DNA of 64,000 nt, from assembly GCA_015068555.1 (NCBI GenBank), contig SVKI01000004.1, forward strand, positions 1 through 64,000, written 5' to 3'. Under the pieces are notes generated by a model, which was not told the DNA's origin, ran no database searches, and worked only from the letters and a program-made list of their open reading frames with translations. Made by a program: the position numbers and the translations under genes. This document shows, piece by piece, positions 21,276 through 54,234 of this stretch (positions within the stretch are counted from its first letter, which is position 1; the number at the start of each line of letters is the position of its first letter). Origin of the DNA: Oscillospiraceae bacterium (GTDB taxonomy: Bacteria; Bacillota; Clostridia; UBA1381; UBA9506).

Positions 21276-21312
21276 AAAGGGATGTTTTGCCAAGGCAAAA
21301 CATCCCTTTATT
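21275..21312 (+). terminator. Terminator downstream of the 6S-like RNA
   Basis: AAAAGGGATGTTTTGCC AA GGCAAAACATCCCTTTATT. Confidence 0.75.
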
Positions 21313-33253: not shown

Positions 33254-33269
33254 AACAATTTTATTCATA

Positions 33270-50633: not shown

Positions 50634-50682
50634 AGCATAATAAAGGGGCCGTAGCAAAATGCTACGGCCCCTTTATTATGCT
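50634..50682. terminator. Bidirectional terminator between convergent genes
   Basis: Perfect 22-bp arms AGCATAATAAAGGGGCCGTAGC / GCTACGGCCCCTTTATTATGCT, 5-nt loop. Confidence 0.9.
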
Positions 50683-51542
50683 TCTATGCTTTTTGCTGCT
50701 GTTATAACAGCTTCCTCTGAGATATCACATGCCAGTTGAAACACGGGTACCTTTTGCAGAATCTCTTCGATTCTGTCTAACGCTTCTGATGCAAGCTCTG
50801 AAACAACAGGCTTCCTGACGGCATCATAGATGCGCCATACAGCCTCAATCGGTTCCATTTTCGTCAGGCTGCAGGTTTTCCCGCGCTTTAAAAAGATAAT
50901 AGCTTTAAGCGGTACGCTGACGTTTGTATTAATGGAATTTTTACCGCTCCAGGGCGTTCCGCACAAAAGCGGTTCTCCGTTTTCTATGCGGATAACAGGC
51001 ATATCATCATTTACAATCACCGTACCCGGCTTATATGTTTTCCACAACTCTGTGTGCGTTGATTTCCCCGTTCCCGAGGGAGCAGAAAATAAAACTCCCT
51101 TTCCGTCATAGGCTAAAGATGATGCATGAATCACCAGACCACCCTGCTGCAACACAGCATATTTTAAAACCTCACCCATCAGATGATACGGTCTTTTTTC
51201 CACATCAAGAGACAGCATCTGCATAGGGCAAAACCACGCCTCAACCTTGGAAAACCCATTACTCATACGAACCAGATTGATAATCTCTTTTGAAATCACA
51301 TCTGCCTGGTCTACAAAGGCATACCCACCGTCTGACATGCGATACCAACGGCGTGCATGAATCTCCGTTACCAGTTCACCTTCCGGTTCGGGCAATCCTA
51401 AACAATTAAAATGAAAAGTAAAGTGAATATCGGCCTGCTCTACCGGCTCTGATTCATACGCTTTAAGCGCTTTTAAAGAAGCCTCGTCTAGACCTTCTTC
51501 ACAACACAGGGTAAAGCCTGCAATTTTATAATAAAATGACAT
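50676..51542 (-). CDS. HPr-kinase-like P-loop protein of unknown function
   Basis: GKGVLFSAPSGTGKSTHTELWKTYKPGTVIVNDDMPVIRIENGEPLLCGTPWSGK; start at MSFYYKIAGF. Confidence 0.75.
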   Translation of the reverse strand: MSFYYKIAGFTLCCEEGLDEASLKALKAYESEPVEQADIHFTFHFNCLGLPEPEGELVTEIHARRWYRMSDGGYAFVDQADVISKEIINLVRMSNGFSKVEAWFCPMQMLSLDVEKRPYHLMGEVLKYAVLQQGGLVIHASSLAYDGKGVLFSAPSGTGKSTHTELWKTYKPGTVIVNDDMPVIRIENGEPLLCGTPWSGKNSINTNVSVPLKAIIFLKRGKTCSLTKMEPIEAVWRIYDAVRKPVVSELASEALDRIEEILQKVPVFQLACDISEEAVITAAKSIEA

Positions 51543-51687
51543 AAGATTTCCATAACCTTTCTGCCTGTAATCATGTTTTATTGTACCATTTCGACAGGAG
51601 GTTGTCAATCTTCTTTTTCATCTCTCACCTCTAATTTAACAAGACCTGTTTTAAATCATAATTTTTTCATTTCTTTTGTAATTTTTC

Positions 51688-53542: not shown

Positions 53543-53788
53543 ATGGCAGTTAAAATGAGACTGAGAAGAATGGGTGCGAAAAAGGCTCCTTTTTACAGAG
53601 TTGTTGTTGCTGATTCCAGATACCCCAGAGATGGTAGATTTATTGAAGAAATCGGTACCTACAATCCCCTGACCAGCCCTTCTGAAATCAAAATCGATGC
53701 AGAAAAGGCAAAGAAATGGTTGGGTAACGGCGCACAGCCGACCGACACTGTTAAGGGTCTTTTGAAAAAGAGCGGTATTATCGACTAA
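53543..53788 (+). CDS. rpsP: 30S ribosomal protein S16
   Basis: [42 protein letters not shown]. Confidence 0.99.
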
Positions 53789-53818
53789 TCACCGATTAAC
53801 TTTTTCTGTTCGTTGAAT

Positions 53819-53848
53819 GAAGGCATAATATGCACATATTATGCCTTC
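53819..53848. terminator. Perfect palindrome in rpsP-khpA intergenic region
   Basis: GAAGGCATAATATG CA CATATTATGCCTTC; no T-tract, so role uncertain. Confidence 0.4.
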
Positions 53849-53957
53849 GGTAAAACGACATCCTACGAATGTTTGTCAAACGCACATAGCCGCCCACGCT
53901 ATGGCGTTACATGATTGATATACCTACCCTGTGGGCAGAAAGGCTATGGGATTTTCC

Positions 53958-54185
53958 ATGAAGGAACTCTTAGAAGTAATTGCCAAATCTTTGGTAGATG
54001 TACCGGAATCGGTTGACGTCAGAGAAAAAGATGGCGAGCAGTCCGTTGTTTTAGAGCTTCGTGTTGCCGACGGTGACATGGGTAAAGTTATCGGCAAAAG
54101 AGGCCGTATCGCTCAATCCATCAGAACCGTGATGCAGGCTGCTGCAAACCGCGAAAACAAGCGCGTAACTGTTGAAATTATCTGA
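53958..54185 (+). CDS. khpA: KH-domain RNA-binding protein KhpA
   Basis: MKELLEVIAKSLVDVPESVDV...GDMGKVIGKRGRIAQSIRTVMQAAA; start uncertain (upstream in-frame ATG 53946, GTG 53931). Confidence 0.93.
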   Translation: MKELLEVIAKSLVDVPESVDVREKDGEQSVVLELRVADGDMGKVIGKRGRIAQSIRTVMQAAANRENKRVTVEII

Positions 54186-54191
54186 CGATAC

Positions 54192-54234
54192 AAAGGGGCT
54201 GTAAAATAACTTATTGTTATTTTACAGCCCCTTT
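54192..54234. terminator. Bidirectional terminator
   Basis: Perfect 19-bp arms AAAGGGGCTGTAAAATAAC / GTTATTTTACAGCCCCTTT followed by TATTTTG. Confidence 0.85.

Follow-up and report, generated by a model that had tools for sequence, protein, structure and literature searches.

A probable degraded copy of a dispersed Clostridia insertion element, carrying a replacement Shine-Dalgarno sequence behind a pseudoknot, in the rpsP-khpA spacer of an Oscillospiraceae bacterium

Results

In the 64,000-nt stretch of Oscillospiraceae bacterium DNA analysed here (contig SVKI01000004.1, referred to as the window), the spacer between rpsP and khpA is very probably a degraded copy of a non-coding insertion element dispersed among Clostridia, which would bring a replacement Shine-Dalgarno site, located behind a pseudoknot, to the genes that it precedes. 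Support from sequence comparison comprises the multi-copy spread of the element, its orientation and position, the existence of filled and empty sites, the covariation of the pseudoknot and, in one species, a purC gene at which the replacement Shine-Dalgarno sequence (SD2) is found alone.

The rpsP-khpA spacer

The gene located upstream of the spacer, rpsP (53543–53788, + strand), encodes ribosomal protein S16 (Pfam PF00886, E 1e-29). The downstream gene, khpA (53958–54185, +; PF13083 KH_KhpA-B, E 1e-25), starts with an ATG at 53958 that is kept in relatives. The initial annotation had described the gap between the two genes as unusually wide, and indeed it measures 169 nt in the window and 34–39 nt in eight same-genus relatives; no full match to it was found in the same-genus relatives searched. 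The eight relatives feature a TAGGAGG sequence just 5' of the khpA start codon, which is missing from the window gap. A long rpsP-khpA gap (140 nt) is also present in a family-level relative, where it contains other hairpins and gives no match to the element at E <= 0.001. khpA is the end of the ffh-rpsP operon here, and rimM-trmD-rplS are not part of it, since a strong intrinsic terminator (54192–54234, +) lies directly 3' of the gene and the genes that follow (smpB-like and mutS) run in the opposite direction.

All of the pairings described earlier were found in the gap, at the positions given for them. They are a perfect 14-bp palindrome that is not followed by a T-tract (GAAGGCATAATATG, 53819–53832, and CATATTATGCCTTC, 53835–53848), the local helix b (CATAGC, 53885–53890, with GCTATG, 53898–53903) and helix c, in which GCCCAC (53892–53897) pairs with GTGGGC (53931–53936) and CATAGCC (53885–53891) pairs with GGCTATG (53942–53948), around AGAAA. 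Five mononucleotide shuffles of the window yielded zero perfect inverted repeats with arms >=12 and loops <=10, and the predicted RNA fold of 53780–54000 is far more stable (−64.5 kcal/mol) than those of shuffled sequences (−46.5 +/- 4.3 kcal/mol; z −4.2; 0/200). Additional long perfect inverted repeats are located at 33266 and 50633 (arms of 21 bp and 24 bp, respectively), and two of 16 bp, starting at 21276 and 21321, lie just 3' of a 6S RNA (RF00013; 21079–21267, +). The 6S RNA is the only Rfam match in the window, and no family covers the rpsP-khpA gap.

The element copy in the window

Covariance models of the element match the window at 53881–53952 (model R1, E 5e-19 in a search of this genome) and at 53879–53954 (model R2, E 3.2e-17); the E-values are rough, since the models received a shortened calibration. 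Matches to the 53930–53955 interval are dispersed in the genomes of the genus. By analogy with copies that have sharp ends (TAACGTG ... GGATATT), and considering the empty sites in relatives, the degraded copy is assigned to 53826–53954 (+). The spacer is best read as one copy of a dispersed RNA-forming element and not as a khpA-specific switch.

Hairpin P1 (53879–53908, +), as drawn from the minimum free energy fold and from P1 covariation in the alignment described below, consists of AACGC/GCGTT with a bulged A, the CATAGC/GCTATG stem corresponding to helix b, and a C-GCCCAC loop. The loop GCCCAC and the downstream GTGGGC are identified by covariation as the 5' and the 3' strand of the pseudoknot, both on the + strand. 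Next to the latter lies SD2 (AGAAAGG, 53937–53943, +), the putative replacement Shine-Dalgarno sequence, which is near-invariant in all copies and, in one species, is the only site left at purC. GGCTATG (+) is a conserved sequence of the element, and its pairing with CATAGCC, which forms the outer half of helix c in the window copy, can be ascribed to coincidence or to local adaptation. P1, the pseudoknot and AGAAAGG are intact in the window, while two other structures of the full-length unit, H0 and P0, are degraded.

At the 5' side, the palindrome (53819–53848, +) fits the first hairpin of the element, H-1. TAATATG pairs with CATATTA, and the stem is extended by the pairing of CCTTC (53844–53848) with GAAGG (SD1, 53819–53823, +), presumably what is left of the native Shine-Dalgarno site of khpA, which would thus be locked. 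The assignment of SD1 comes from its position, as SD1 lies 4–10 nt 5' of the element in other copies, and the homology of the palindrome to H-1 rests on position and architecture, the window hairpin differing from the consensus in sequence. In other copies SD1 is followed by TAACGTG...CACGTTA and, in many of them, by CCTCC, which can pair with GGAGG; the CCTTC-SD1 pairing may be the parallel of this arrangement.

A probable remnant of a second copy, consisting of the SD2 (AGAAAGG) end only (GGCAGAAAGGTTATGGAAATCTTATG) and similar in form to the purC remnant reported below, is found at 51547–51574 (−). It lies right after a good promoter (TTGACA, TACAAT), just before the gene at 50676–51608.

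Core design and covariation of the pseudoknot

Copies share a common layout, in which a hairpin of variable sequence with the loop GCCCAC is followed by a spacer of ~20–40 nt, GTGGGC, AGAAAGG, CTATGRAAATT and the start codon. The 3' tail of 16S rRNA (CCUUUCU) can base-pair with AGAAAGG. Directly 5' of this sequence, the P1 loop can pair with GTGGGC while the hairpin stands, which would form an H-type pseudoknot; pairing of the loop with the 3' strand, accompanied by covariation, is what was found. In the A4 alignment (51 copies), the P1 and pseudoknot pairs are formed in 99% of cells, compared with 35–41% in slid controls, and 10 of the 12 pairs feature changes on both sides. Since A4 had been partly chosen for pairing, a further test was made on copies retrieved with R1, a model that includes no pseudoknot pairs. 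Among the genus copies with a 3' strand other than GTGGGC (n = 40), 34 carry the full upstream complement of their own strand when G-U pairs are allowed, and 20 carry a strictly Watson-Crick complement. When strands were shuffled among copies (2000 trials), the means were 12.4 and 2.5, and the maxima 20 and 8, respectively. Covariation is also evident at orthologous loci. For instance, korC-like loci feature GCCCAC/GTGGGC, GTCCGC/GCGGAC or GTCTGC/GCAGAC, and orthologues of an S1-domain gene feature GCTCAC/GTGAGC or GCCCAT/ATGGGC (both gene labels were taken from reading the protein sequences rather than from a family search).

The suggestion that a structured RNA occupies the khpA initiation region is hence backed by strong covariation. 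Relatives bear out one half of helix c, as GCCCAC/GTGGGC covaries and is conserved together with helix b, but the outer half is private to the window copy. Similarly, the proposal that helices b and c are mutually exclusive applies to the outer seven pairs of c, which exclude b, but not to the inner six, which are compatible with b as a pseudoknot.

The full-length form

Full-length units, which feature two further hairpins on the 5' side, occur in HAN068, a MAG particularly rich in copies, and among copies belonging to several families of the class. The order is: native Shine-Dalgarno site, H-1 (TAACGTG...CACGTTA), CCTCC in many copies, H0, ATAAT, the 5' strand of P0, P1 with the pseudoknot, AGAAAGG, the 3' strand of P0 and the start codon. 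Copies range in length from about 165 to 250 nt and have sharp ends, as evidenced by sequence information, which jumps at TAACGTG and drops after GGATATT. An extra domain of ~85 nt is inserted within H-1 in six copies; at one further locus, the same domain is found nearby in inverted orientation.

Compensatory changes were detected among 38 HAN068 copies both in P0 (A-U 26 / C-G 12 and U-A 33 / A-U 5) and in H-1 (U-A 25 / A-U 7). P0 is strong in HAN068 and in a few full-length copies of the genus; its absence from most genus copies led us to reject it as a general feature.

H-1 contains a conserved GTG, suitably spaced from SD1, and the upstream Shine-Dalgarno site might drive a short ORF from this codon, as in a leader-peptide attenuator. 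This seems very unlikely, as the length of the frame varies from 5 to >100 codons in 60 copies, and at purC the upstream site is the native site of empty loci. The reading frame starting at the GTG was rejected as not conserved in the same 60 copies.

The alternative hairpin

The GCCCAC/GTGGGC covariation does not by itself discriminate between the pseudoknot and a long hairpin, in which the new site would be hidden. A cis-regulatory RNA switch, in which P1 would expose the start and the long hairpin would hide it in response to a ligand, a protein or temperature, in a set of co-regulated genes, is possible though doubtful. With the same reserve, the hiding hairpin would be formed by CCTTATCTGCCCAC with GTGGGCAGAAAGG, and in the window by CATAGCCGCCCAC with GTGGGC and GGCTATG. 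The RNAalifold consensus of 38 young HAN068 copies does pick the long hiding hairpin, P0, with its compensatory changes (A-U and C-G, see above), engages the nucleotides that lead from AGAAAGG to the start codon in pairing, and the two states of the window copy are ~4 kcal/mol apart when the pseudoknot is left out (−32.3 kcal/mol for P1 without the pseudoknot, −28.6 kcal/mol for forced c; the isolated loop/GTGGGC duplex amounts to −10.2 kcal/mol before penalties). However, P0 is missing from most genus copies, and the hiding pairing itself is not favoured across copies. Conservation of helix c as an alternative would require that the P1 5' strand retain its complementarity to the Shine-Dalgarno region. 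Over 47 copies (genus and window), the duplex between the two has a mean energy of −2.3 kcal/mol, vs −2.4 kcal/mol when strands are shuffled (median p 0.635), and the window copy is an outlier (−11.0 kcal/mol; 0/200 shuffles). Switching between b and c is consequently discarded as a shared principle. It may operate in the window copy alone, but is not what evolution keeps; the start-hiding helix of the window is not conserved across copies. The genes found downstream and the copy numbers, reported below, also argue against a switch.

Filled, empty and remnant insertion sites

Full-length copies begin 4–10 nt past the native Shine-Dalgarno site, stop just 5' of the start codon and have the same orientation as the gene. 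In 46 HAN068 copies aligned on the 5' end, the anti-Shine-Dalgarno duplex energy peaks at −6.4 kcal/mol 4–10 nt upstream of the element and is ~0 elsewhere (three positions with numerical overflow were left out). Shine-Dalgarno-like 4-mers are located <=14 nt from the element in 56 of 60 copies, and in 10 of 60 control windows.

The purC locus is informative in this respect. The filled site of HAN068 reads ACATGGAAGGAACTGACA-element-ACCATGAAAAAA (in short form, GGAAGGAACTGACA-element-ACCATG), and the empty site of the sister species reads ACATGGAAAGGAACTGATAAATATGAAAAAA (GGAAAGGAACTGATAAATATG); PurC proteins of the nearest species are 98–99% identical. No target-site duplication was found at this one locus, where the two flanks, once joined, are as long as the empty site. 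In a third species, G041, just AACAGAAAGGCTATGGTGATTACTATG is left after the promoter region of purC, and no Shine-Dalgarno sequence other than SD2 is visible. Relatives in which the apt site is empty likewise carry an ordinary site at the corresponding position.

Distribution and downstream genes

The element is multi-copy. R1 matches number 6–22 per genome in 10 of the 10 genomes of the genus. With R2, matches were obtained for 70 of the 95 genomes searched within the order and, in a draw across the class, for 55 of the 391 genomes, which represent 38 of the 222 genera drawn; MAG HAN068 yields 93 matches, MAG SUG219 24 and the cultured isolate Ructibacterium gallinarum DSM 107454 13. Match counts from searches over 40 genomes are lower bounds, as strict filters were used, and carriers are mostly draft metagenome genomes. 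In the genus of HAN068, copy number varies from none to >50. Both a dispersed multi-copy state and empty sites in relatives, as expected of a MITE or a short mobile repeat, were therefore observed.

A sequence-pattern scan of genome contigs located real copies in Clostridia. Non-clostridial matches to the pattern have neither the hairpin nor the spacing, look like chance and were set aside. Zero matches at E <= 1e-7 were found in 398 other genomes of the phylum, which is weak evidence of absence outside the class, as the draw included some Clostridia and filters were strict. BLAST searches against the annotated collections of plasmid and GenBank phage records also returned zero matches. A full-length copy (−), with an upstream GGAGG, is present before a phage-like structural gene on the viral contig IMGVR_UViG_3300031555_010414, which is a possible vehicle.

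In all of the 70 clear genus copies, an ORF starts 21–29 nt past the first base of the pseudoknot 3' strand, and these copies stand before 41 protein families. The genes that follow HAN068 copies include purC, apt, murG, dnaN, dnaX, queC, recN, and genes encoding a class II (D/K/N) tRNA synthetase and secreted proteins (apt, murG, dnaN, queC and the synthetase were checked with Pfam). No common function or pathway is apparent among the downstream genes of the genus and of HAN068, which argues against a metabolite ligand. At two loci, asd is preceded by two structured leaders in succession, a lysine riboswitch and, 3' of it, the element.

Among the same-genus genomes examined, khpA bears the element in the window species only. 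The initial annotation had suggested a KhpA autoregulatory element or a ribosomal-protein leader. The position between rpsP and khpA would suit such an operon-specific leader, but the distribution contradicts it, as the element is absent at khpA in eight relatives and precedes 41 unrelated gene families in the genus; we regard this reading as hardly tenable.

Relationship to known RNAs and mobile repeats

Rfam searches with nine genus copies detected only the adjoining lysine riboswitch at E <= 1, and searches with nine HAN068 loci gave no relevant match at E <= 5. Membership of a known RNA family (riboswitch, thermometer, ribosomal-protein leader, group I/II intron) was rejected, as no Rfam match to the element was obtained. 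Five diagnostic sequence strings were unmatched in open-access papers, and keyword searches of the main text of RNA-discovery papers retrieved nothing similar. On the Rfam, plasmid, GenBank phage and open-access searches the element is previously uncatalogued, although an earlier description is possible.

The element is akin to MITEs and to other short interspersed repeats, such as REPIN/RAYT systems (PMC3116915, PMC8049555) and MITEAba12 (PMC6382973), in being short, non-coding, structured and multi-copy, in varying in copy number between close relatives and in having no visible enzyme of its own. Unlike MITEs and REPINs, it is always located between a Shine-Dalgarno site and a start codon, in gene orientation, and carries a Shine-Dalgarno sequence of its own. 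Neither terminal inverted repeats nor a target duplication were seen, and compensatory RNA pairing is kept in old copies. TAACGTG and GGATATT are not inverted repeats, and the inner P0 arms are not terminal.

A mobilising enzyme was not found. Y1 transposase genes are present in 10 of 16 genomes; HAN068 and G041, which have 93 and 4 element matches, respectively, give five Y1 matches each. No linkage to the element was seen at the locus inspected. Repeats flanking a RAYT gene, the hallmark of REPIN/RAYT systems, were not seen either, as the 2.4 kb containing the HAN068 RAYT-like gene (one locus) carry no element. A Y1/RAYT transposase is not favoured as the mobiliser, the genes being present, but neither linked to the element at the locus inspected nor tracking its copy number. 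Mobility is inferred from distribution, since neither a mobilising enzyme nor terminal inverted repeats nor a target duplication came to light.

IS200/IS605-type elements generate no target duplication, have subterminal hairpins and are fixed in orientation relative to the target. The element is similar to these single-strand elements in all three respects, but has no linked transposase, and its copy number does not follow the number of Y1 transposases. A plain DNA mobile repeat, either a MITE or an IS200/IS605 derivative, in which pairing would matter as DNA for movement and the start signal would be incidental, seems unlikely to us. Such a repeat would account for the near-identical full-length copies found before different genes in different families, for the lack of target duplication at purC, as in single-strand transposition, and for the Y1 transposase of HAN068. 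It accounts less well for the fixed distance from the start (21–29 nt), for Y1 genes that do not follow copy number and for the RAYT-like locus mentioned above. Moreover, the pseudoknot changes in old orthologous copies are compensatory, which implies a function in place.

The preQ1 and SAM-II riboswitches and the ribosomal protein S15 leader feature an H-type pseudoknot abutting the Shine-Dalgarno sequence. The element has the same arrangement; unlike these RNAs, it has no Rfam match, precedes dozens of unrelated genes per genome and is inserted whole into existing initiation regions. Its spread recalls that of short mobile repeats and its anatomy that of pseudoknot riboswitches, but it lacks several of the MITE and REPIN features tested (terminal inverted repeats, target duplication, repeats flanking the RAYT gene).

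Discussion

Our favoured reading of the element as a portable initiation region implies the following course. A full copy would insert, in one orientation and leaving no target duplication, into the gap that separates the start codon from the native Shine-Dalgarno site. The first hairpin and the anti-Shine-Dalgarno CCTCC segment would put the old site out of use, and ribosomes would initiate from AGAAAGG, a new site suitably spaced from the start codon. The pseudoknot may be kept because it holds AGAAAGG open, or because it presents this sequence to the 30S subunit or docks the subunit. Older copies shed the outer hairpins and retain the pseudoknot and the new site. More speculatively, and with little confidence, the mobile element might find its targets by pairing with Shine-Dalgarno sequences through CCTCC and the first hairpin, as RNA or single-stranded DNA, placing up to ~90 unrelated genes of a single genome under a common, possibly regulated, pseudoknot-gated start signal.

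Insertions between a Shine-Dalgarno site and a start codon are normally expected to silence the gene. The element is inserted there in dozens of genes, including usually essential ones (dnaN, dnaX, the class II tRNA synthetase gene, murG), and comes with what appears to be a start signal of its own. It may therefore be viewed as a natural, portable initiation module, the rules of which could be tested by swapping parts, and it would make a new Rfam entry. It would also explain why some gaps are unusually wide, and why some weak AGAAAGG sites occur, in the genomes of gut Clostridia. Unrelated genes would come to share the same start signal and, if the pseudoknot is regulated, the element would provide a way to rewire the translation of many genes simultaneously.
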